NCBI GenBank assembly: GCA_022813675.1
Contig: CP063375.1
Location: forward strand, 62,001-126,000
From: Deferribacteraceae bacterium V6Fe1
Lineage (GTDB): Bacteria > Chrysiogenota > Deferribacteres > Deferribacterales > Deferrivibrionaceae
Reading direction: 5' to 3'
DNA length: 64,000 nucleotides
Positions 14,487-40,892 of this stretch are shown here, one piece after another. A program made the position numbers and the translations under genes. The stretch's first letter is position 1, and each line of letters begins with the position of its first letter. The notes under the pieces are model-generated. The model was not told the origin of the DNA, did no database searches, and was given only the letters and a program-made list of their open reading frames with translations.

Positions 14487-14915
14487 TTAATATATTATGT
14501 TAAAAATTCTGGCGTTGCCATCTTTCTCTATTTTAATGTCAACTATATCGTCAAAATATTCTCTCAAGTCCAGTTTATCAGCCCATTCTATAACCGCAAT
14601 CGCATCATCTTCAATATATTCAAAAAAACCTGTCTGTTCCAACTCATCTATGCTTTCAATGCGATACAAATCAAAGTGCAAAAGTTTTCCCCCTTTTTTT
14701 GATTCGTAAGTATTTAATATTGTGAATGTCGGACTTGATGACTCATTCTCACAACCAAAATATTCTGCCAAAAAGTTCGTAAAAGTAGTCTTACCTGCAC
14801 CCATCTCCCCATTTAAAAAAACTACACGTCTCTGTTGTGAAGCCAAAAGGTCATAAACCCATTTTGCTATCTCTTTAGTATCTTCAATACTTAATGATTT
14901 TTTATAATAATTCAT
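14487..14915 (-). CDS. tsaE: tRNA threonylcarbamoyladenosine biosynthesis ATPase
   Basis: TsaE is the ATPase that works with TsaB and TsaD to form t6A37 in ANN-decoding tRNAs. The 142-aa protein has the Walker A GEMGAGKTTF, the SSPTFTILNTYE switch, HFDLYRIES and the VIEWADKL motif, all diagnostic. tsaB lies at 56659-57243 in the same window, far away. The start overlaps the end of nnrD by 14 bases, an arrangement seen in many bacteria. Confidence 0.95.
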   Translation of the reverse strand: MNYYKKSLSIEDTKEIAKWVYDLLASQQRRVVFLNGEMGAGKTTFTNFLAEYFGCENESSSPTFTILNTYESKKGGKLLHFDLYRIESIDELEQTGFFEYIEDDAIAVIEWADKLDLREYFDDIVDIKIEKDGNARIFNIIY

Positions 14916-30428: not shown

Positions 30429-30788
30429 TCACCGACATGGATAGAAACGTTGCAGTACTGAGAGAACAGCATCATGAGCATTCATAGCTCGAAACCGGCT
30501 TGAAGCAGTAATTTCTTTCTCTGCAATGGTCACAAGATGGGTGCGTGAAGTACCATTTGGGATGCAAATTTTATCATCTTCACGAATACTATCAACAACC
30601 GCTTGGATGTAGCCGTTACAGAAACTGATCCAGCTCTCGTCAGCCTGCGTGCAGGCATTTGAAAAACTTGCTCCATTCATCTGTATTTTCGAATCAATTG
30701 CAAATGCAGGAATTGAAAATAATATTGTTGCCAAAATGACAACAGCCACCCACATACGAATAATCTTATCGAATGCTACGTTAAACAC
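30429..30788 (-). CDS. Rap1a/Tai-family immunity-like protein
   Basis: A 119-aa exported protein with a signal peptide (about 10-31, ending PAFA). The mature part has the Rap1a/Tai pattern: FSNACTQ, a CNGYIQAVVDS helix, the KICIPNGTSRTHLV stretch and the C-terminal RFYPC. Family members in Proteobacteria protect against peptidoglycan-targeting type VI effectors. Neither a matching effector nor secretion genes are in the window. It sits 45 bases downstream of a second attI-like core site and is probably a cassette gene. Start GTG 30788 follows GGAG. Confidence 0.75.
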   Translation of the reverse strand: MFNVAFDKIIRMWVAVVILATILFSIPAFAIDSKIQMNGASFSNACTQADESWISFCNGYIQAVVDSIREDDKICIPNGTSRTHLVTIAEKEITASSRFRAMNAHDAVLSVLQRFYPCR

Positions 30789-30832
30789 CTCTTACTCCTA
30801 TGTACAGTTTTATACATCGTTTAAAGCACCTA

Positions 30833-30888
30833 ACTATTTATTCTTTAACAAAATTTATCATAGCTAAAATTCTATGTCAACATTAATG
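30833..30888 (-). promoter_or_regulatory. attI-like site with cassette promoter, copy 1
   Basis: This segment matches 35495-35541 plus 37018-37025 almost base for base. On the minus strand it reads TTGACA (30880-30875), a 17-bp spacer and TAAATT (30857-30852), then a shared stretch AAAGAATAAATAG ending at the core G/TTAGGTGC (30834/30833). That order, promoter then recombination core then cassette gene, is the arrangement of an integron attI with its cassette promoter. No integrase gene lies beside this copy. Confidence 0.65.
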
Positions 30889-30929
30889 GAATTCTGCATT
30901 GTTCCAGTTTTTTCTGGATAGTAATCAAA

Positions 30930-30951
30930 ATCCCCGAGTCGCCCCGGGGAT
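30930..30951 (-). terminator. Intrinsic terminator, copy A
   Basis: The 7-bp stem ATCCCCG / CGGGGAT with an 8-base loop is followed on the minus strand by TTTT. It is the same hairpin as at 37668-37689 and lies just past the end of the truncated oxidoreductase copy. Confidence 0.8.
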
Positions 30952-30956
30952 AGTAG

Positions 30957-31497
30957 TTAGCCTTTTATCGCTTTATTTATAATATTTTCTGCTGCCATCA
31001 CTATTGCATTATTTGCCGGATAAAAGCTCTGAAATGGCTGAGCACAATAGCTGAAATTAAACAGATCCATAGCGGTATTATTATTTTGAATGGCAAGAGA
31101 AATTGTGTCTATTCTGCCAGGCACCCCTTCGCCTGCCACAACCTGCCCGCCTAAGATTTTCAATGTCTTTTTATCAGTAATAAGCTTTACTTTGACCTTT
31201 TTTGCTCCGGGAATTATCGGAAATCTGGTAGTAGTCTCACCATAGCCAACGATTACATCAAACCCTCTCTGCTTTGCCACTTCCTCGGTAAAGCCAGTGC
31301 CCCCCATCCTGTATTTCTCAACCTTTGTAATAGCACCGTTTATAAACCCTTGATATTTATAATCTCTACCCAATAAGTTATAGGCAAGTATTTTTGCCAT
31401 CGGCACAGCGTTTGTAGCAAGCTTGCCACCGATAGGCTTTTTATCAATGTAGGAAACAAAAGATGCCACATCACCTGCCGTATAGACATCTTTGATA
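30957..31497 (-). pseudogene. Truncated copy of the flavoprotein oxidoreductase (C-terminal third)
   Basis: The reading frame encodes the last ~180 residues of the same protein as 37695-39032, from I-K-D-V-Y-T-A-G-D onward. Only about six substitutions occur in the last 170 residues, and no gaps are present. The N-terminal FAD and NADH motifs are missing because the sequence switches abruptly at 31498 to the end of a gene cassette. A GTG or ATG within it could start a fragment at 31469, but no function is expected. Together with its terminator it forms a 576-bp direct repeat with 37660-38235. Confidence 0.9.
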
Positions 31498-31507
31498 GTT
31501 AGCCTGC
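31498..31507 (-). repeat. Cassette end box (R'') fused to the truncated gene
   Basis: Plus-strand GTTAGCCTGC here is the exact inverted partner of GCAGGCTAAC at 32573-32582. The pair brackets the DUF6884/GIY-YIG genes as start and end boxes of one cassette. The hairpin expected after the end box is absent; the sequence passes straight into the oxidoreductase fragment. The junction coincides with the G/TT crossover point of integron-type recombination. Confidence 0.65.
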
Positions 31508-32137
31508 TTCAATTGTCCTTTTCAAAATCTCCAAGTCTTCTTTAGAAAGTTGTTCCTTGAATAACCCATTCACAAGCCACAAGCCACTCTCGCGTACCTT
31601 GCGCTTTGGTGAACATATCCCTAACCAATTGGGAGACGGACGACATTCTTCGCACCATGATACTGTAGATATAATTCTCTCTTCCCACAGCAGGCGTTCT
31701 TCCTTGCCCTTTACAGCAAATACCACAAATGAAAAGTTTTGCTGGATGTATTCCGTTACTTTTCTCTCAACCTGATGTTGCTTTTCTTTATCAAGCAACA
31801 ATAAATAACGCTGATTCGCTTTCCTTGTCGTCAAATCCCAGTTCCATTGATCTAAAAACGGGTCTTTTGCCCTATGCAAAATTGCCCGCCCGATGTTTTT
31901 TCGAAAGATGCTTCGGTCTTTGTTCTCTTTTAAAAAGTGCTGTTTCAGCCGAGAACGCAATTGGTTTTCTCCCGTATGCGTTCCTACTCTCACTATCCGA
32001 TCTGCCCCGTGTGCAGATTCTCCTTTTTCAAAAAGAATGTAGATGCCATTGTAGGGTATTGCCTGCTCAACAAATGGAAACCGATGACGTGGTAGGCTGT
32101 TGAATAGGTCATGCAACCGCTGGCAAATTTCACTCAC
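31499..32137 (-). CDS. GIY-YIG-like nuclease-domain protein
   Basis: About 212 aa. The N-terminal part carries a GIY-YIG-like core: NGIYILFEKGE for the first strand, IVRVGTHTG for the second, the arginine of LRSRLKQHF, and a late LWEERIIS that can supply the metal-binding Glu. The C-terminal half is unassigned. The GTG start at 32137 overlaps the upstream stop (GTGA), so it is coupled to the DUF6884-like gene; a longer start at 32206 is less likely. Base composition is richer in GC than the surroundings. DNA cleavage or repair is plausible, and a defence role is only a guess. Confidence 0.7.
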   Translation of the reverse strand: MSEICQRLHDLFNSLPRHRFPFVEQAIPYNGIYILFEKGESAHGADRIVRVGTHTGENQLRSRLKQHFLKENKDRSIFRKNIGRAILHRAKDPFLDQWNWDLTTRKANQRYLLLLDKEKQHQVERKVTEYIQQNFSFVVFAVKGKEERLLWEERIISTVSWCEECRPSPNWLGICSPKRKVRESGLWLVNGLFKEQLSKEDLEILKRTIEAG

Positions 32138-32550
32138 GTTCCTGTTTTCTCCTTCAAAAATTGCAATTGTTTCCCAATAGGCAAACCGGCCAATGGCACT
32201 TGGCAAGATTGGAGATACGGCATCAGGTATTGCCGGTATTTTTTCCCAGCAAGTATGACAAAATGATCATTTTCCAAATCACAATACTCTCGAAGTTGCT
32301 CAATTACTTTCCTTGCCCAGTTTTTTCGTTCATGAGCAGACAAATTATTGAGCGTAACATCGTATGGCACTATTTCTTCATCCAAATCTATCAAACCGTA
32401 TTTCGCAGACAATATAAATATATTTTTGGGCGAAAACCGTTGGGCGTACTTCAGGTTCATTCGAAATAGCGGGCTGACGTACAAATCCCTAGCTCTTGCC
32501 CTATGCTGCAATTTCTTGCTCACACATGAAATCAGAACAACTGTGCTCAT
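32134..32550 (-). CDS. DUF6884/YaaA-like protein
   Basis: A 138-aa protein with LISCVSKK at the N-terminus, a DLYVSPLF motif, FILSAKYGLIDLDEEI and VPYDVTL. This pattern is that of the DUF6884 group, which resembles part of the YaaA fold. No activity is established for the group. It is coupled to the GIY-YIG-like gene and the pair occupies one cassette between the inverted boxes at 32573-32582 and 31498-31507. Confidence 0.65.
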   Translation of the reverse strand: MSTVVLISCVSKKLQHRARARDLYVSPLFRMNLKYAQRFSPKNIFILSAKYGLIDLDEEIVPYDVTLNNLSAHERKNWARKVIEQLREYCDLENDHFVILAGKKYRQYLMPYLQSCQVPLAGLPIGKQLQFLKEKTGT

Positions 32551-32572
32551 AATCTTAACTTAATCATTTAGT

Positions 32573-32633
32573 GCAGGCTAACGAAAAGCTCACCTGCCGC
32601 TATGAAGCTAAGCGGAAAAATGTCAGGTGCAAC
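32573..32633 (-). repeat. Gene-less 51-bp cassette-like segment with hairpin
   Basis: On the minus strand two core sites, G/TTGCACC (32633) and G/TTAGCC (32582), enclose about 51 bp and no gene. The interior folds through CACCTG (32591-32596) / CAGGTG (32624-32629) and CCGCT (32597-32601) / AGCGG (32611-32615). It may be a relic attC or an empty cassette. The 32573-32582 part is the start box of the next cassette. Confidence 0.5.
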
Positions 32634-32758
32634 GTTTGGGCTATGCGTAGTTTGGGATTTTGAAACGATTAACTTTCAATTTACAACTAATTTTATTTAA
32701 TGCTATAAACTTTAAAATTAACACTTTACCCAAATTACGTATAGCCTTTGTTGTGGTG
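32634..32758 (-). repeat. attC-like site of the protease cassette
   Basis: Arms GGCTATGCGTAGTTTGGG (32639-32656) and CCCAAATTACGTATAGCC (32729-32746) pair at 16 of 18 positions around a 72-base loop. Outside them, GTTGTGGTG (32750-32758) is the end box, inverted relative to CACCACAAC at 33618-33626, the start box of the same cassette. This box-arm-loop-arm-box order is the signature of an integron attC site. Confidence 0.7.
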
Positions 32759-32761
32759 TCG

Positions 32762-33595
32762 TTATTCCCTAAATAATTCTTCTAATTCGAGTATTCTTTC
32801 AGATTTTATAATCAGTCCCAAATTATTTGGGATACTTGAAAGAACCATAGGTTTTTGAAAATTTGGCGTCATAATTATTTCACCTTGAGCAGTTGCTTGT
32901 GGTCCAGCATACAACACTCCAAGAAATATTATTCTACTGGTTCCCATATAAGTATTTCCTTTTTTATCTCTATATCCACCTTCAATAAATATTAGCACTG
33001 GTGAGCCACTTGAACCAGGAAAAGCGGCAATATCAATCATAATTTCCTTTTTTCCGTTATAGTCAATTAAAGGATGTGTTGCTGTTGAGCCTTTACGTAA
33101 AATTGGCATATTATTAACTTCGTCCCAAATACCATTAGGATAACCAATCATTAAAACATCTTCAAGTGCTGACAGTTCTCCCTTATGCTTTTCTGTTAGT
33201 AATAAATCTTTTGTAAATGGAATGTAAAAGAGTTTCTCCCCTTTTTTATTCGCCTCATTTAGAAATGGGGCGATTGGCATTGCACATAAATCAACATCGT
33301 CATCAGGGTGTAATCTCCAAAATCTCTCAAAATTTTCAAATGATACAGAAAAGTGTTGAGTATCTAATGGTTCTCCTTTTTCATTTGCCTTAGTAATAAT
33401 TAGTTTTCCATTTTTTGAATTTCTGATAACGTGTTTATTTGTTATTACAACTGGAACGTGTGTTTTATTCTCTTTGTCTTCAAGAAAATTAAAAAAGAAG
33501 CCAGTTCCTGTAGATATTCCACCCGTTTTTAATTCACACTCAATTCTTACTGTTGAGTATGTTAATTGTTCTGATAATGATAAATTCATAGTCAT
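32762..33595 (-). CDS. Trypsin-like serine protease (cassette gene)
   Basis: A 277-aa protein with the chymotrypsin/trypsin-like fold and no signal peptide, so probably cytoplasmic. The catalytic triad is recognisable: His in VITNKHVIR, Asp in HPDDDVDLCAM, and Ser in AAFPGSSGSPVL. An N-terminal TGTGFFF strand fits the fold. The gene fills the cassette between boxes 33618-33626 and 32750-32758. An AAGGAA site precedes the ATG. Substrate and role are unknown; proteases of this type also occur in phage-defence modules, but nothing here proves such a role. Confidence 0.8.
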   Translation of the reverse strand: MTMNLSLSEQLTYSTVRIECELKTGGISTGTGFFFNFLEDKENKTHVPVVITNKHVIRNSKNGKLIITKANEKGEPLDTQHFSVSFENFERFWRLHPDDDVDLCAMPIAPFLNEANKKGEKLFYIPFTKDLLLTEKHKGELSALEDVLMIGYPNGIWDEVNNMPILRKGSTATHPLIDYNGKKEIMIDIAAFPGSSGSPVLIFIEGGYRDKKGNTYMGTSRIIFLGVLYAGPQATAQGEIIMTPNFQKPMVLSSIPNNLGLIIKSERILELEELFRE

Positions 33596-33617
33596 ATTAT
33601 TTCCTTTTTATTTAATG

Positions 33618-33685
33618 CACCACAACGTTTGTGTAAACGCTATTGTGTTTATCCCTCCAAATTGGCGGGCTAAACGCAATTGTGT
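33618..33685 (-). repeat. attC-like hairpin between recombinase and protease cassettes
   Basis: On the plus strand 33642-33680 is a near-palindrome with regularly spaced mismatches: ATTG, TTTA, CCC and CCAA pair with TTGG, GGG, TAAA and CAAT. The protease cassette's start box CACCACAAC (33618-33626) adjoins it. The end box expected for the recombinase cassette (complement of its start G/TTATGCG) is not recognisable, so this site may be decayed. Confidence 0.55.
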
Positions 33686-33716
33686 ATATTTTTCTTTTAT
33701 CATTTTAAAACTCTCC

Positions 33717-34553
33717 TTATTCGAAAAAATCATCAATAGGATTCCTGATTTTATCTATCGCCTTCTTTGAAACGTGTGTATAAATTTCAGTAGTCTTGGA
33801 ACTATTATGTCCCAACAACTCTTGAATATACCTTAAATCTGTACCTTGTTCAAGCAAGTGAGTTGCAAAACTATGTCGTAACATATGTGGGGTAACTTTT
33901 TTCTTGATCCCCGCATTTGATGCTGCTTTTTTGAGAATATTTGCAACACTTGTTGGAGAATATTTGCCACCTGTTTGGCCTTCAAAAAGATAAACCTTTG
34001 GTTTATAAGCTATATAATAATCACGTAATACTTTTAGCATATTTTCAGATAGCAGAGACATCCTATCTTTTTTCCCTTTTGCACCTTTAATATTTACAAT
34101 CATTCTTTCCGAATCTATATCAGATATTTTTAAGTTTATTAATTCACTACGCCTTAAACCTGCAGAATAAATCAACATTAAAATGCTTTGATGCTTAATG
34201 TTATTACAAGAATCAAAAAGCCTTTTAACTTCTTCTTTGCTAAGCACTTTTGGTAATTTATGTTCTTTCTTTGGCCTATATAATGTATAATATTGTTTTT
34301 CCCTACCCAGTACTTTTTCATAATAAAATTTAATAGCATTTATCCTTTGATTTTGCTGACTAATGGAAATATTTTTTGTTTTGATTAAATCAAGAATATA
34401 CTTATTTATTTCTTCTGTTTTAACATCTTCTAAATTTGAATTTTTGAAAAAATTATAAAAATCTTTAACATAATTACAATAAATATCTATTGTATTTTCA
34501 CTATATCTTTTTTGAGTTAGACGATTTTTATATTGTTCTAAAATTTCATTCAT
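33717..34553 (-). CDS. XerC/XerD-like tyrosine recombinase inside the array
   Basis: An intact 278-aa site-specific recombinase. The N-terminal SAM-like domain spans about 1-85. The catalytic set is complete: Arg in SAGLRRSEL, Lys in NIKGAKGKKDR, HMLRH, the His of LLGHNSS and the nucleophile in TEIYTHVS. It lacks the extra segment before the second Arg box that defines IntI proteins, so it is not the integron integrase. It follows the HNH cassette's attC, on the same strand as the cassettes, and may itself be cargo. Whether it acts on attC sites is unknown. Confidence 0.88.
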   Translation of the reverse strand: MNEILEQYKNRLTQKRYSENTIDIYCNYVKDFYNFFKNSNLEDVKTEEINKYILDLIKTKNISISQQNQRINAIKFYYEKVLGREKQYYTLYRPKKEHKLPKVLSKEEVKRLFDSCNNIKHQSILMLIYSAGLRRSELINLKISDIDSERMIVNIKGAKGKKDRMSLLSENMLKVLRDYYIAYKPKVYLFEGQTGGKYSPTSVANILKKAASNAGIKKKVTPHMLRHSFATHLLEQGTDLRYIQELLGHNSSKTTEIYTHVSKKAIDKIRNPIDDFFE

Positions 34554-34579
34554 ACAACTATGCTTTACCTGATTTTAAA

Positions 34580-34668
34580 CGCATAACACCTAGCATCACC
34601 AGCAGAAAAAAGCAGAGCGACGAAGGAGCGGCGCTTTTTGCTGTCCGAGTGCATGCGATTTTTATGCC
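34580..34668 (-). repeat. attC-like site of the HNH-WYL cassette
   Basis: Outer boxes CGCATAAC (34580-34587) and TTATGCC (34662-34668) pair over six bases, and an inner stem pairs CAGCA...AAAAAGC (34600-34613) with GCTTTTTGCTG (34633-34643). The end box TTATGCC is the inverted partner of GGCATAAC at 35489-35496, the start box of the same cassette. It overlaps the stop codon of the HNH gene, as is common in compact cassettes. Confidence 0.7.
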
Positions 34669-35480
34669 TATAATACTTTTAAGCCTCTCATTCGCTTTAA
34701 TGCAAATATACGCTCTGCTTTTCTGAGTTCACAATAACCACGAACACAAAGAGTTGAACCACTATCTCTTTGATGATCAACATTGATAAGTTCATATGGT
34801 TTAACAGTTCTTTGTTTGTAGCTTTTTTCGTTACACTTCTTGTAGCCAAAATTGATTCGCTTACCGTTTTCTATAGCATAGCGGATATTTGCTACACGTT
34901 TAGAAAAAGCTATTTCAGAACTGGTGAACTCACCAGAAAAATCTCGTCCTCCATGCTCCTTCGAGTGGCAATTCTCACACAGCAATATTAAGTTTGTTAT
35001 TTTGTTGCTACCGCCTTTAGATAATGGCTTAATGTGGTGCAAATGAAGATGCCCCCAGTTTCCGCACTTACTGCATTGTTCACCATCTCTTTCTACTACT
35101 TGACTTCTTCTCTCTTCCCAATCAGGGGGATATGTAAGAAAGTAATCGTATATTGGGGTGATTTTGGCACGTAAAGAAACTAAGCTATTGGACAACTGGG
35201 AAATATTTTCTTCAATTGCAGTAATTTCCCTTTCTATATCGAACGTATCAACAGCTGGCTTTGAAAATATAGAAATAATCTTAAATCCTAAACCTTCACG
35301 CTTTTCAATTTAACTCCTAAGTCTATTTAATTTCTCTTGCTGTGCATATATTTCGTTTTCAACATCCTCTTCCTTACCTTGAATAGAATTCAAACACGAT
35401 TCATGAATTATCCCGCCATCGGAAAGATGAATCCCATCGGAAGCCGCTTTTTTGCAAATTTTACAGGATGGCATTTTCAT
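34668..35480 (-). pseudogene. HNH endonuclease with WYL domain, interrupted by one stop codon
   Basis: Read from ATG 35480, the frame encodes a 57-residue segment with a zinc ribbon (CKIC and H-E-S-C), hits TAA at 35312-35310, then continues in the same frame to 34668. The downstream part holds a helical linker, an HNH nuclease (CSKCGNWGHLHLHHI, ILLCENCHSKEH) and a WYL-like ligand-binding domain (INFGYKKCNEKS to KRMRGLKVL). A restart at TTG 35195 would give a 175-aa HNH-WYL protein. Thus the gene is broken or yields a shortened product. The cassette starts eight bases before the ATG. Confidence 0.75.
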
Positions 35481-35490
35481 ACTCTTGTGG

Positions 35491-35541
35491 CATAACTATT
35501 TATTCTTTAACAAAATCTATCATAGTCAATATTCTATGTCA
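35491..35541 (-). promoter_or_regulatory. attI-like site with cassette promoter, copy 2 (left part, split by IS)
   Basis: Reading the minus strand toward the cassettes, this holds the -10 candidate TAGATT, the conserved AAAGAATAAATAG stretch and the core G/TTATGCC at 35496/35495. The -35 box TTGACA is complete at 37018-37013 on the other side of the insertion sequence. Because nine bases were duplicated, the left copy still has TGACA, with the element's terminal G replacing the first T. The promoter may therefore persist in weakened form. Confidence 0.65.
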
Positions 35542-37008
35542 CTGCCATCACCCCATTTTTTGCACCTTTAAGCTACAAGTAAACTTTTCTTTCTTTTCAT
35601 TTTTCCTAACTCATTAATCCGATGTCTTTTTTCCTTAATCTTAAAATAATAATCCAATTTAAAATAACACACTTTATCTGATTCATAAATCTTTTCCCTA
35701 AACCTAAAAAGTCGTTCTTTAGATGATAATAACAAGTTCATTAACCCATCTGAAATTCGATAATAAATAAATTTACATACAACCTTACCCTTACTATTAA
35801 ATTTCTCCCTTTTTGCCATATTCTCTAAAAGTTTTGAAACAATTGTATCTTTCTCTATTTGGCTTAATACATTCCAACAAAAGGATACTAACGATAATAT
35901 AGTCTTTAAAGATTCAAACTTCCTCACAAGACACTTTTCCAGCCCAAATTGCTGTTTCATAAATCTATAGCTTTCTTCTATTTTCCATCTCTTAAAATAA
36001 GATTTAATCCTAAAGTAAGCCTCCTTACTGCTACTTATGTGGCCTTCACATAAAAAATAAAGTTTATTCTTATTACCATGAAAGCTCACACTAATAACTG
36101 TAACTGCTCGATTGTTGTAGTAACATTTTGCATAACCATAAGAAATACCACCCTTCTTGTAACGCCTGTTTATTATACCATTGCAAATTTTATATACTGA
36201 CATCTTCTCGCCCTTATATTCTAAATGCCTCTTACCTGTGCTCCTAATAACAAAATTTAAATCTTCTCGAAGAAGATATCTTAAAATTACTCCCCTGTCA
36301 TAACCCCTATCAAATACAAATAAACCCTTATTTCGAAACTTATCTTTTAATTTATCCAGCATATTTAAGGTCTCTGTATTCTCACTTTTAAAGTCTTGAG
36401 ATTTAGAACTATAAGCATCTAAATATAATGAAAATAAACGTTTGCTACTGGGGCTATAACACACTGCATGATTTAAATGGAAGCCATTAGCAATACGACC
36501 ACTACTACCATCGTGGACTTTACCAATAAGCTCAAAGTTTCTACCATAATTGTGAACCAAATCTCCACCATCAATTGATATTATTAACCTGGAATCTGAT
36601 TCTGTTTCTTTAAGTGCGTAATCAATATTATATGCATTTGAAATAGCAAGTAGATGTGAATAATTAAATGTATTTCTTTGCAACCGCTTTAATGTGTGTT
36701 TAATTCCACACTTCTCATTTAAATAACCAGATATGGCAGTAAGATTTAAACTGCGAGTAGCAAAACAACCTGAAATAATCTCAAGAATATACTTTTGTTG
36801 CGGCTTTGTGAGATAATCATGAAGGTTTCTTGTAGTGTTTAACATTTTTCCCTTCACATTTTTAGTAATTTCACCTATCATAAACTGCCTCCATTTTGTT
36901 GTTATTGTTGCTTTTTTCGTTAAAATCATAATACAACATCTTGGAGGCATTATCAATTATAAATACCTGTCAAATAACATTTCTTATGTAAAAATGGGGT
37001 GATGCCAG
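35542..37008 (-). mobile_element. IS4-type insertion sequence, 1467 bp
   Basis: The ends are inverted repeats: left CTGCCATCACCCCATTTTT, and the right end read inward CTGGCATCACCCCATTTTT, one mismatch over 19 bases. The 9-bp sequence TCTATGTCA flanks both sides (35533-35541 and 37009-37017) as a target-site duplication. It holds one transposase gene and nothing else. The second attI-like copy at 30833-30888 shows the uninterrupted target, confirming the insertion point. Confidence 0.93.
35568..36881 (-). CDS. IS4-type transposase
   Basis: A 437-aa DDE transposase. The first Asp is in IISIDGGDLVHNYG, the second in LFVFDRGYDRG, and the Glu in KRWKIEESYRFMKQQFG, whose Y-R/E spacing resembles the IS4 signature. 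ATG 36881 is chosen since GGAGG lies seven bases upstream; longer starts would lack it. The frame appears intact, so the element may be active. Confidence 0.9.
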   Translation of the reverse strand: MIGEITKNVKGKMLNTTRNLHDYLTKPQQKYILEIISGCFATRSLNLTAISGYLNEKCGIKHTLKRLQRNTFNYSHLLAISNAYNIDYALKETESDSRLIISIDGGDLVHNYGRNFELIGKVHDGSSGRIANGFHLNHAVCYSPSSKRLFSLYLDAYSSKSQDFKSENTETLNMLDKLKDKFRNKGLFVFDRGYDRGVILRYLLREDLNFVIRSTGKRHLEYKGEKMSVYKICNGIINRRYKKGGISYGYAKCYYNNRAVTVISVSFHGNKNKLYFLCEGHISSSKEAYFRIKSYFKRWKIEESYRFMKQQFGLEKCLVRKFESLKTILSLVSFCWNVLSQIEKDTIVSKLLENMAKREKFNSKGKVVCKFIYYRISDGLMNLLLSSKERLFRFREKIYESDKVCYFKLDYYFKIKEKRHRINELGKMKRKKSLLVA

Positions 37009-37030
37009 TCTATGTCAATATTAATCAAAG
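37009..37030 (-). promoter_or_regulatory. Right part of the split attI-like site (-35 side)
   Basis: It begins with the target-site duplication TCTATGTCA and carries on as ATATTAATC, matching the sequence next to copy 1 (30872-30888). It contains minus-strand TTGACA at 37018-37013, the original -35 box of the cassette promoter. Confidence 0.6.
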
Positions 37031-37126: not shown

Positions 37127-37572
37127 ATGGAAAAAGAGAAAAAATTATTAGACATTGTGAGAGAAAAAATACGTGTTAGACAATATAGTTTTCAAACTGA
37201 AAAAACATATATTGGATGGACAAAAAGATATATTTATTTCATAACAAAAAGCATCCTAGCAAATCAAGAAAAAAAGATATAGAAGCATTTTTAACTCATC
37301 TTGCTGTCGATAAAAACGTTTCTGCAACAACTTAAAACCAAGCTTTTAATGGTATCTTATTTTTATACGAAAATGTCTTAGATATATCTTTAAAAGAATC
37401 TAACATAAATACTCTGCGTGCCAAAAGAAGAGAACATATGCTACAAAGTGGGATAGATATAAGGACTATACAAGAGCTTTTAGGCCATAAAGACATAAGT
37501 ACTACAATGATATATGTCCATATTCTAAAAGATTTAAACAAAAATATGATAAAAAGTCCTTTGGACTTCTAA
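37127..37572 (+). pseudogene. intI: Decayed integron integrase (intI)
   Basis: The N-terminal frame reads LLDIVREKIRVRQYSFQTEK and TYIGWTKRYIY, then a one-base loss in a T run near 37240 shifts the frame to FHNKKHPSKSRKKDIEAFLT and HLAVDKNVSATT. A CAA-to-TAA-type stop follows, then NQAFNGILFLYENVLD. At about 37434 the text jumps from LRAKRRE to HMLQSGIDIRTIQELLGHKD and ends at SPLDF. These are IntI family signatures. The central catalytic region, with the first Arg box and the IntI-specific insert, is deleted. It diverges from the cassette array as in canonical integrons. Confidence 0.88.
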
Positions 37573-37659: not shown

Positions 37660-38235
37660 TAATCAAAATCCCCGAGCTACCCCGGGGATAATATTTACTT
37701 TTTTAGTACCTTATTTAAAATATTTTCCGCTGCCATCACTATTGCATTATTTGCCGGATAAAAGCTCTGAAATGGCTGAGCACAATAGCTAAAATTAAAC
37801 AAATCCATAGCGGTATTATTATTTTGAATGGCAAGAGAAATTGTGTCTATTCTGCCAGGCACCCCTTCGCCTGCCACAACCTGCCCGCCTAAGATTTTCA
37901 ATGTCTTTTTATCAGCAATAAGCTTTACTTTGACCTTTTTTGCTCCGGGAATTATCGGAAATCTGGTAGTAGTCTCACCATAACCGGCTATTACATCAAA
38001 CCCTCTCTGCTTTGCCACTTCCTCGGTAAAGCCAGTGCCCCCCATCCTGTATTTCTCAACCTTTGTAATAGCACCATTTATAAACCCTTGATATTTATAA
38101 TCTCTGCCCAATAAATTATAGGCAAGTATTTTTGCCATCGGCACAGCGTTTGTAGCAAGCTTGCCACCGATAGGCTTTTTATCAATGTAGGAAACAAAAG
38201 ATGCCACATCACCTGCTGCATATACATCCTTGATA
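37660..38235. repeat. 576-bp direct repeat, partner of 30922-31497
   Basis: The two segments align at a constant offset of 6738 bp with no gaps seen, differing only by scattered substitutions. They include the terminator and the last third of the oxidoreductase gene. Recombination between them would remove the integron array and leave an intact gene. Confidence 0.88.
37668..37689 (-). terminator. Intrinsic terminator of the oxidoreductase gene, copy B
   Basis: Stem ATCCCCG (37668-37674) / CGGGGAT (37683-37689) with an 8-base loop; on the minus strand TTTT follows. It lies 5 bases past the stop codon of the full oxidoreductase gene. Confidence 0.85.
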
Positions 38236-39032
38236 TTTGTTTCCATCTTTTCATTGACCACTATCCCATAATTGTCAATTTTAAGTGCAGTATCCTTAAA
38301 TATTTCCACATTAGCCTTTACGCCCACAGAAAAAATTATCAAATCATTTTCTCCAAGCTCAATATGGCTACCGTCAGATAAATTTACCTTTTGGACAAAT
38401 TTTTCTCCATCAAGACTTTCTACCTTTGTATTAAGTAGCAATTTGACACCAATCCCACCTATCTCCTCTTCCGGCAGTTCAGTCATATCTTTATCAAGCA
38501 GATTGGGCAATACCCTATCTTGCATCTCTACAAGATAAGTCTGCAAACCTTTTCTAAAAAGTGCCACAGCCATCTCAATGCCTATATTTCCGGCACCGAC
38601 TACCACTGCCTTTTTGGCACCGCTATTTATACACCCGAGAATCTGCTCCAAATCGCTTTCGGTCTTTACTGTCGCTATATTTTCCAAATGGCTCCCTTTT
38701 ATTGGTGGTACAAATGGTGAAGCTCCTGTAGCAATAATAAGTTTGTCATATTCAAAGCTGCCATTATTTTCCGTAAATACGTTTTTTTTATCAAAATCAA
38801 CCTTTACAACTTTATCTTTTACAAGCTTTGCACCGACATCAAGCACAAGGCTATCTTGCTTTCTAATCTTTTCCTTCTCTACCAAATCTTCTACTACGTA
38901 AGGCAAAGCACAGTAAATGACACTGTAAGGTTCTGGTCTTACCATTGTGATGTCAATCTGATCATTATGTGCCTTAAGTGTCCTTGTCGCCTGTATCCCT
39001 GCCGGTCCACCACCAATAACCACTACTCTCAT
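37695..39032 (-). CDS. FAD-dependent pyridine-nucleotide oxidoreductase (NADH oxidase / CoA-disulfide reductase family)
   Basis: A 445-aa flavoenzyme. FAD-binding GGGPAGIQATRTL opens the chain. A single conserved Cys lies in YSVIYCALPYVVE (about residue 45), the position of the redox Cys in NADH oxidase, CoA-disulfide and related sulfur reductases. The NAD(P)H motif is GAGNIGIEMAVAL, the second FAD motif is DVYAAGDVASF, and a C-terminal dimerisation domain follows. The substrate could be CoA-disulfide, polysulfide or oxygen; sequence cannot decide. It is transcribed alone from a promoter overlapped by a palindrome, and its 3' third is duplicated at 30957-31497. Confidence 0.88.
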   Translation of the reverse strand: MRVVVIGGGPAGIQATRTLKAHNDQIDITMVRPEPYSVIYCALPYVVEDLVEKEKIRKQDSLVLDVGAKLVKDKVVKVDFDKKNVFTENNGSFEYDKLIIATGASPFVPPIKGSHLENIATVKTESDLEQILGCINSGAKKAVVVGAGNIGIEMAVALFRKGLQTYLVEMQDRVLPNLLDKDMTELPEEEIGGIGVKLLLNTKVESLDGEKFVQKVNLSDGSHIELGENDLIIFSVGVKANVEIFKDTALKIDNYGIVVNEKMETNIKDVYAAGDVASFVSYIDKKPIGGKLATNAVPMAKILAYNLLGRDYKYQGFINGAITKVEKYRMGGTGFTEEVAKQRGFDVIAGYGETTTRFPIIPGAKKVKVKLIADKKTLKILGGQVVAGEGVPGRIDTISLAIQNNNTAMDLFNFSYCAQPFQSFYPANNAIVMAAENILNKVLKK

Positions 39033-39046
39033 AATCTTCCTCCTTC

Positions 39047-39094
39047 ATTCATATAGCAATATATGAATATATGTATTTACAGATATATAGTCAA
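39047..39094 (-). promoter_or_regulatory. Promoter and operator of the flavoprotein oxidoreductase
   Basis: On the minus strand TTGACT (39094-39089), a 17-bp spacer and TATATT (39071-39066) form a good promoter. The inverted repeat ATTCATATA (39047-39055) / TATATGAAT (39060-39068) overlaps its -10 and start region, a position suited to repression. The arm sequence resembles the palindrome at 29283-29312. Confidence 0.7.
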
Positions 39095-39212
39095 CGACTT
39101 TTTTGAATATTTACCCGTTTATTGTCCGGCAACCTGTCAAATATAACAATATTCAATTTCTCTTCATTGCAAAATTTATTGCTCTAAATTAACCTCCTTG
39201 ATATTATTGATT

Positions 39213-40892
39213 ATGAAAATTAGGCTACCAAAAATTTATTACTTGATGTTTGCATCTATCTGCGTGGGGCTGCTCTCCAAATTTTTCTTAATAATTGCGT
39301 ATCTGCTAAGTATCATATTGATAATATTATTTTTTGAAAAAAGGCTAAGGCAGATTTTACTATTTTTGTTATGTGGGATATTTTTAATTAGCAACTTTGC
39401 AACGGTAATTCTTGATAAAAAAAGCTATGGTAAAAAGGCTACAACATATTACTCAATCACAAAAAATTTCAAATCATATGAAAATTTTGATATAGGCGAC
39501 ATCATAATCGGCAAAAAAGAGTCTATAAATCAATATTCTATTAACATTAAGCCGCTCTTGACTTTAAAAATTCCAGTTGTGTCTTCAATAATCTCATTCA
39601 GAAAGAATTTAAGCGAAAGACTATATCTAAAATCAGGGGAAAAGCTAACTTTAATTCAAGGATTGATTCTCGGAGATAAAAGTAAGATAAGCGGAGCCAC
39701 AAAGGATAAATTTACCTATCTCGGCCTAAATCACTATCTTGCAATTTCGGGGCTTCATATAGGAATAATTGCAGTAGTCCTGATAACTCTAATACCAAAA
39801 ATACCTTTAAAACCGAAGCTTTTGATTGTATCTATCATCTTACTATTCTTCACGATACTGACAGGCTTTAAAATACCTGTCATACGCTCTGTAATATTTT
39901 TTGCAATCTTAACTATAACCTACATTATGAATGTAAAAGTCGATTTCAAAAATTTTGTTATACTTATAGGCTCTATTTTTACACTTATCTCCCCTCCCAC
40001 TATTTTTAATTTATCATTTATATTGTCATTTTCCGCCATTTTAGGAATCGCATTTATTATTGAGGAGGAAAAACATTTTTTATTTAACATTTTTATAACT
40101 TCAATAGCTGCAACAATTTTTACTCTACCTTTTGTGCTCTACTTTTTCAAAATGTATAATTTTTTGGCTGTTATAAATACGATAGTAGTTTTTCCGATAA
40201 TCTATCTGCATATTGTATGCGGCGTTTTTACGCTACTATATGAAAATATTTTTATAAGGCCGCTTATTGTAAATGAAAATATTTTAAATCAGATGCTTGA
40301 TCTTTTGATAAAATATGAATCTCATTTTTTTACAACAAATAAAATCCCACTCATTATATTTGTAGTGATGCTCTTAACCATACTTATTTCTCTAATAACA
40401 AGAAAGAAAATACTACTTGTCATTATTCCTATTTTGGCTTTGATACCTTATTATACTCCTGATAAAAATATCTACTTTCCAAACTTTATAAGAAGTAAAG
40501 CCGTAATCGATATGACTTCAAATGAGATTTATTACCAGGGGTTTTATTCAGATTACAGATACAAACTACTCCCCTATCTGCTCGACAAAAATATCAGTTT
40601 AAAATTTAATCGCGGCTATTTTAGAATATATGACGGAGAAAATATCTTTATAAAACATAATGAAGAAATTAAATCACTGACAAATATTTGCATAAATAGC
40701 ACTAACGACAACTGTCTATTTGAATATTTTACAAACAAAGGCTATTTTAAAGGGATAACGTATAGACAAGACAAAATTTACATTGTATATGATACGGACT
40801 TGGAAAAGGGGAATATTTTTACTCTAAAAAACAAAAAAGAGCTTATTTTTAGTCCAAAGGGAGCATTAATAGATGAAAATTTTCCTAAATGA
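39213..40892 (+). CDS. comEC: ComEC/Rec2-family competence membrane protein (short form)
   Basis: About 559 aa, with many transmembrane helices. The Competence domain is recognisable by the segment GLILGDKSKISGATKDKF and then HYLAISGLHIGIIAVV, the most conserved ComEC signature. ComEC forms the inner-membrane channel for single-stranded DNA in natural transformation. The C-terminal metallo-beta-lactamase-like domain of longer homologues is absent. ATG 39213 is favoured over an earlier TTG at 39198, but neither has a clear ribosome site. It overlaps thiF by 20 bases. Uptake of DNA would be one route for the array's foreign cassettes. Confidence 0.85.
   Translation: MKIRLPKIYYLMFASICVGLLSKFFLIIAYLLSIILIILFFEKRLRQILLFLLCGIFLISNFATVILDKKSYGKKATTYYSITKNFKSYENFDIGDIIIGKKESINQYSINIKPLLTLKIPVVSSIISFRKNLSERLYLKSGEKLTLIQGLILGDKSKISGATKDKFTYLGLNHYLAISGLHIGIIAVVLITLIPKIPLKPKLLIVSIILLFFTILTGFKIPVIRSVIFFAILTITYIMNVKVDFKNFVILIGSIFTLISPPTIFNLSFILSFSAILGIAFIIEEEKHFLFNIFITSIAATIFTLPFVLYFFKMYNFLAVINTIVVFPIIYLHIVCGVFTLLYENIFIRPLIVNENILNQMLDLLIKYESHFFTTNKIPLIIFVVMLLTILISLITRKKILLVIIPILALIPYYTPDKNIYFPNFIRSKAVIDMTSNEIYYQGFYSDYRYKLLPYLLDKNISLKFNRGYFRIYDGENIFIKHNEEIKSLTNICINSTNDNCLFEYFTNKGYFKGITYRQDKIYIVYDTDLEKGNIFTLKNKKELIFSPKGALIDENFPK

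Follow-up and report, generated by a model that had tools for sequence, protein, structure and literature searches.

The window analysed here, a stretch of 64,000 nucleotides (nt) from Deferribacteraceae bacterium V6Fe1, carries the remains of a canonical integron and, among them, an integron-type tyrosine recombinase that lacks the I2 segment of canonical integron integrases (IntI). Read along the minus strand, the locus consists of a CoA-disulfide-reductase-like gene (39032-37695), upstream of the integron remains; a pseudogene of intI, on the plus strand; a leader (L1) with the integron attachment site, attI; a cassette for an HNH-WYL protein; the 278-residue recombinase and its own attI; a cassette for a trypsin-like peptidase; a remnant of a cassette recombination site, attC; and a cassette for a DUF6884 protein. 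Two kinds of attC stand here side by side: that of the HNH cassette has bulges, that of the trypsin cassette has none.

The recombinase gene (33717-34553, minus strand) is oriented as the cassettes are. Its product scores 245 bits with the XerA-like family NF040815, above the cut-off of 220, and 223 bits with TIGR02249, the family of integron integrases, below the cut-off of 265 and with the match in two pieces. Its alignment with IntI4 (2a3v) breaks at chain residues 207-244. As read from an alignment of 115 recombinases, the IntI-specific I2 segment measures 45 residues in 18 of 18 IntI, 15 in XerC/D and in the window integrase, and 15-16 in every one of the latter's 81 relatives: the additional (I2) domain near patch III, the canonical criterion for an IntI, is missing. 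The AlphaFold model has a mean predicted local distance difference test score of 85.6, and its best solved folds are XerA (5hxy) and IntI4 (2a3v). In a phylogenetic tree, IntI form one clade (100/100) and the I2-less group is separate, with weak support as one group (71/80); both split from XerC/D with full support, a result that carries a long-branch warning. Relatives of the window integrase occur mostly in Bacteroidota. The closest ones (73-77% identity) belong to Desulfurellales, Fermentibacterota and one genome from a Bacteroidota sample, which suggests that the integrase may have moved laterally. In one phylum sample, the window integrase used as query retrieved no relative.

Directly 3' of the gene lies a hairpin, its presumed attI (33626-33716, minus strand; fold z -3.0), with the crossover AAACG^TTGTGGTG. 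The DNA after the stop codon is kept in the window and in three related loci (L170, L028 and L017) up to ACG^TT; beyond it come unrelated first cassettes. The integrase is transcribed toward its own attI, so that integrase and cassettes run in one direction. An integrase-adjacent attI with a G^TT crossover is found three times in the window: in L1 and a second leader, L2, both of the dead IntI, and at 33626-33716, beside the I2-less integrase. A short open reading frame (ORF; 33610-33703) starting with MIKEKY, partly kept in relatives, overlaps the latter site and continues into the first cassette.

The core at which an integron cassette starts belongs to the cassette's own attC, as the R' half of that site, and is thus complementary to the R'' box at the end of the cassette. 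The sequence-only reading of the window had described three cassettes of which each has a start box complementary to its own end box, and all six boxes are indeed there. Cassette 2 (32633-33625, minus strand), with the trypsin-like ORF (32762-33595; phrog_7688, Trypsin_2), is bounded by an exact 9-nt pair, CACCACAAC (33618-33626) and GTTGTGGTG (32750-32758), with one more copy in the 64 kb (25916). Cassette 3 (31498-32581, minus strand) contains the DUF6884 protein gene (32134-32550; 168 bits) and an overlapping unknown ORF (31499-32206); its 10-nt pair, GCAGGCTAAC (32573-32582) and GTTAGCCTGC (31498-31507), is exact as well and has no other copy in the window. This cassette ends at its R'' box (31498), and the remainder of its attC is absent. 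Between cassettes 2 and 3, the attC remnant (32582-32632, minus strand), identified by sequence and hairpin, fills the space between two crossover points and holds no ORF. For cassette 1 (34587-35495, minus strand), assigned by its boxes and by Pfam HNH and WYL matches, the complementarity is limited to 7 nt, between GGCATAAC (35489-35496) and TTATGCC (34662-34668), a 7-mer with 12 copies in the 64 kb. The upstream part of its ORF (34668-35195) is apparently broken. The segment 34586-33626, which holds the integrase between cassettes 1 and 2, was also considered as an ordinary cassette and rejected: its start box, TTATGCG, has no matching end.

That the boxes are the same within a cassette and different between cassettes was confirmed on 43 related loci, where the sequence following the integrase gave the start box and an exact complement of that box was looked for farther downstream. 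The own 9-nt complement is present in 29 of them, clearly above chance: boxes permuted between loci give a mean of 2.3 (maximum 7 in 500 permutations), and the upstream flanks give 2 matches. Matched own boxes are what attC-bounded cassettes entering via circles should show, which supports the circular insertion proposed earlier. They are also the normal signature of an integron cassette; the boundary rule is already known and is not novel alone. Cassette genes with flanks running on across the boxes, which would have spoken against it, were not seen: the window cassettes were found in none of 59 other genomes searched, and no near-identical copies of their genes turned up for a direct comparison. 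Plasmid relatives of the trypsin-like protein, at 44% identity or less, are too distant for a boundary comparison, and viral scans with the trypsin-like protein and the unknown 235-residue protein of the window gave no match.

In canonical attC stems, unpaired extrahelical bases chiefly set the choice of strand (PMC2727003). The bulges that folding was expected to reveal appear in one of the two window sites. The HNH attC (34580-34668) has a stem with canonical one-base bulges; 60 base pairs (bp) of it recur at 83-85% identity in related genomes. The trypsin attC (32626-32758; 132 nt, fold z -3.1) has none and belongs to a bulge-less class. A covariance model of 25 bulge-less attC sites (R1), built with the window site left out, matches the trypsin attC with 87.3 bits (E 2.7e-18); it does not match the HNH attC.

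The stems of the bulge-less class are well defined. RNAalifold on the 25 attC sites of R1 gives 18 pairs, 15 of them with compensatory double changes. One-base bulges are present in 9 of 9 distinct class 1 attC sites, six pairs apart in 8 of the 9; any bulge within the first 14 stem positions is seen in 20 of 89 sites of the I2-less class against 9 of 9 of class 1 (p = 6e-6). Instead, 81 of the 89 have at least one position that reads A.C on the top strand and T.G on the bottom strand. The commonest pattern is six pairs, one A.C/T.G, four pairs, one A.C/T.G, four pairs; this orientation outnumbers the reverse by 166 to 15, and in 57 of 69 sites the fold of the bottom strand is the better one. 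Deleting the extrahelical bases of a canonical attC leaves recombination in place and only partly abolishes strand specificity (PMC2727003), so that in a site that has no bulges polarity might plausibly come from elsewhere.

Arrays of such cassettes follow the related integrases. We traced 96 cassettes in 36 related loci, in chains of up to seven, by passing from one attC to the following one through the R' box that the fold defines; the attC sites are mostly 130-137 or 189-204 nt long, and 89 of 91 ORFs lie on the integrase strand. In 80 related loci, R1 has 86 matches, every one of them 3' of the integrase gene and on its strand. In one genome with a Flavobacteria-type integrase, 47 same-strand sites occupy about 43 kb 3' of it, and the 18 kb that precede the gene are free of such sites. 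In 237 kb of control loci (IntI, including class 1, Xer and others), R1 is significant only at the window site and on a Chryseobacterium plasmid that has an I2-less integrase.

The same association holds among 148 Bacteroidota genomes, with the integrase called present at E <= 1e-65: the integrase occurs in 48 and the attC class in 85, the latter in 45 of the 48 genomes with the integrase against 40 of the 100 without (p = 9e-11). Moreover, among 18 genomes that carry I2-less arrays, 17 yield no IntI that passes the cut-off. Canonical IntI occurs in 70 of 248 genomes of the phylum and is not rare, so both systems coexist there and some arrays without the integrase may rely on other enzymes. 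Some genomes without the integrase at this threshold carry 10-15 bulge-less attC sites.

The surrounding integron is older. Its intI pseudogene (37127-37566, plus strand) starts with MEKEKKLLDIVREKIRVRQYSFQTEKTYIGW, has lost its middle and is frameshifted; tblastn with IntI1 and another IntI aligns pieces of up to 52% identity, with recognisable N- and C-termini, and a PF00589 fragment remains. The attI leader L1 (35496-35541, minus strand) has the crossover AAATAG^TTATGCC. Two sister species have, at the same chromosomal place, an intI-like remnant and the same leader end, AAATAG^TTA. What follows it there is another cassette, bounded by boxes of its own that pair exactly over 10 nt, and with a related attC. 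The leader and the intI-like remnant with varying cassettes in sister species imply that an old canonical integron with a dead integrase sits here in the genus: the locus is a decayed canonical chromosomal integron, common to the genus at the same site, with varying cassettes.

Several rearrangements have affected these remains. An IS4-like insertion sequence (35542-37008, minus strand; DDE_Tnp_1 and IS4 family models) sits within the leader, with a 9-bp target duplication, TCTATGTCA, at 35533-35541 and 37009-37017. Self-blast finds a second copy of L1 at 30831-30879 (92% identical), giving the leader L2 (30834-30879, minus strand; crossover AAATAG^TTAGGTG), and a duplicated C-terminal piece of the reductase-like gene at 30922-31497 (minus strand), 95% identical to 37660-38235 and fused to cassette 3. 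The duplication thus takes in both the attI leader and the 3' end of the reductase gene, and its junction coincides exactly with the R'' box of cassette 3 (31498); it may stem from an integrase error or from illegitimate recombination. Behind L2, a Rap1a-like immunity protein (30429-30788, minus strand; Rap1a 49 bits) is encoded in what is probably the first cassette of L2, from the position directly after the leader. An Rfam scan of the window found tRNA only.

Taken together, it is probable that a second, different integron unit, composed of the I2-less recombinase, an attI 3' of its gene and a cassette with a bulge-less attC, came into the decayed canonical integron. In the mechanism that we propose, the I2-less enzyme would integrate circular cassettes at the G^TT of its own attI and recombine the folded bottom strand of attC. 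The choice of strand would come from T.G pairs that turn into A.C mismatches on the top strand, not from extrahelical bases. The integrase of the host genome may be active now or have been so recently.

Several points weigh against this reading. The box pair of the HNH cassette, at 7 nt, is weak by itself; the trypsin attC is the only site of the bulge-less class in the host genome; and the second unit, now within the old array, is no standard cassette. The related loci were picked by similarity to the integrase and are kin to each other. Furthermore, 40 of the 100 genomes without the integrase at the threshold carry the attC class, 9 of them with a canonical IntI, and IntI or another recombinase might move the attC sites of such genomes. 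Catalysis by any I2-less enzyme is itself inferred from sequence. Even so, an I2-less enzyme acting on attI and attC is most likely what these data reflect.

The best of the other explanations is that the locus represents ordinary canonical remains: the now dead IntI would have moved the cassettes, and the recombinase would be a passenger, XerA-like by chance. It accounts for the intI pseudogene, the two canonical leaders and the canonical bulges of the HNH attC. IntI enzymes, besides, take many attC sites; of two attC sites assayed from the Polaribacter phage P12002L, one was integrated by IntI1 (PMC9892861). This phage has sites of R1 type, and the integrated one may or may not be among them. 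We nonetheless hold it unlikely, as the recombinase has a conserved attI of its own that ends at the crossover and no matched boxes around it, its relatives head arrays in genomes of which most lack IntI, and the trypsin attC falls in the bulge-less class, not with class 1.

Far less probable is a Xer-type recombinase that would act on double-stranded, attI-like sites only, for instance in resolving or inverting, with cassettes spread by other means. The fold, the NCBIfam model (XerA) and an I2 segment as short as in XerC/D are compatible with it, but one-sided, co-oriented arrays of long folded attC sites begin at the enzyme's attI, and the strand polarity of the stems suggests that a single strand is used. 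That the boxes are the inverted-repeat ends of another mobile element, or terminators, as inverted-repeat hairpins between genes can be, is hardly credible, given that they differ between cassettes and match within them in chains of up to seven, that the conserved attI stops at the same G^TT, and that the stems covary with strand polarity.

Beyond the second unit in the window, we favour, with less assurance, the existence of a large integron lineage of its own, common in Bacteroidota and also found in phages, without I2, with attC sites free of extrahelical bases and with strand choice by oriented T.G/A.C positions. The integrases of IMG/VR contigs (L206-L285; 43-54% identical) are I2-less as well (14-16 residues). 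Many of these contigs bear attC sites of R1 type, all on the opposite strand and almost all 5' of the integrase. In seven viral loci, 46 of the 52 pairs of neighbours have matching boxes, compared with 4.6 after permutation, and 36 of 39 cassettes have their ORFs on the strand opposite to that of the attC. Examples are L281:123-4067, L255:291-5404 and L271:1361-5510, with short cassettes and ORFs directed toward the integrase. The contig behind L271 has genes for large proteins of tail type and for the large subunit of a terminase (301 bits): at least one viral-labelled array contig is clearly a tailed phage. A terminase match above the cut-off is present in 7 of 32 viral-labelled contigs.

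On tet(X3) plasmids (Acinetobacter; pHH1107), at L129:5700-8200 and L130:8000-10260, a gene annotated as recombinase or TnpF is a shortened I2-less integrase; an attI-like core, CACTTG^TTATGTGCC, precedes tet(X3), and half an attC follows it. A clean tet(X3) cassette was rejected, as the R'' half that follows the gene, GGCTACTAAC, shows no match to the start box, TTATGTGCC; the link is a loose one, and the cassette is a hybrid or rearranged.

The I2 domain has been reported as necessary for the activity of integron integrases (Messier and Roy 2001, as cited in PMC2426708), and its co-evolution with the extrahelical bases of attC has been termed a chicken-egg paradox (PMC4792948). A lineage that has attC arrays but neither of the two features allows that question to be tested directly: if real, it would be a present-day case of attC recombination that does without the pair, whether as an intermediate toward IntI or as a parallel invention. 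Software that relies on the IntI-specific domain could then miss arrays in Bacteroidota, where IntegronFinder 2.0 reported a single complete integron in Bacteroidetes proper (PMC9024848) and the attC class is present in 85 of 148 genomes. The arrays may mobilise genes of Bacteroidota, among them the immunity genes found in gut species and, perhaps, tet(X), and the known rules of bacterial gene-cassette capture look incomplete. Within the searchable literature, we found no integron lineage that lacks both I2 and the pattern of extrahelical bases; an earlier notice of an integron-like nature may nonetheless exist.

Compared with known systems, the I2-less units share with canonical IntI integrons an attI on the integrase side, matched R''/R' boxes, attC sites that fold as single strands and co-oriented arrays. 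They differ in the enzyme, which has no I2, in attC sites with A.C/T.G positions in place of the bulge pattern, and in the attI, which in the bacterial loci lies 3' of the integrase. That last arrangement has a parallel in Treponema, where intI is transcribed toward attI, integrase and cassettes are co-directional and attI is at the 3' end of the integrase gene (PMC3607928); these are IntI integrons by description, and it is by description only, not by sequence, that we set them beside the I2-less unit. Archaeal XerA is both the best family model and the best structural match of the window integrase. XerA has roles of the chromosome-dimer type, and we know of no XerA with cassettes.

Phage integrons and attC clusters are already known, including integrase-less clusters in virulent phages, from IntegronFinder and attC models; the parts of that study consulted do not mention an I2-less type of integrase (PMC9892861). 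The likeness lies in attC-type sites in phages: R1 matches sites of P12002L (L289), at 31113-31318, 32219-32285, 38875-39249 and 14498-14629. This isolated lytic phage, without an annotated integrase, has several bulge-less attC sites, some adjoining methyltransferase genes.

The nearest published counterpart is the rAID array (recombinase-associated acquired interbacterial defence) of gut Bacteroidales. Such arrays consist of a tyrosine recombinase followed by co-oriented immunity genes with conserved intergenic motifs, and are defined by a recombinase homolog upstream of two or more co-directional genes with a guanine-plus-cytosine content under 41% (PMC12247911). On a Parabacteroides distasonis plasmid (L133:6815-12450), an rAID-like immunity-gene array has matched start and end boxes, short intergenic hairpins and a core with ATT in place of GTT. 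rAID arrays differ from ours in being defined by immunity genes, in their shorter intergenic sites, unmatched by R1, and in that the word integron is absent from their description (PMC12247911). Both have a recombinase with co-oriented short genes, and the P. distasonis recombinase is 56% identical to that of the window: judged by its box pairs, the rAID array looks like the same kind of system as the I2-less arrays.

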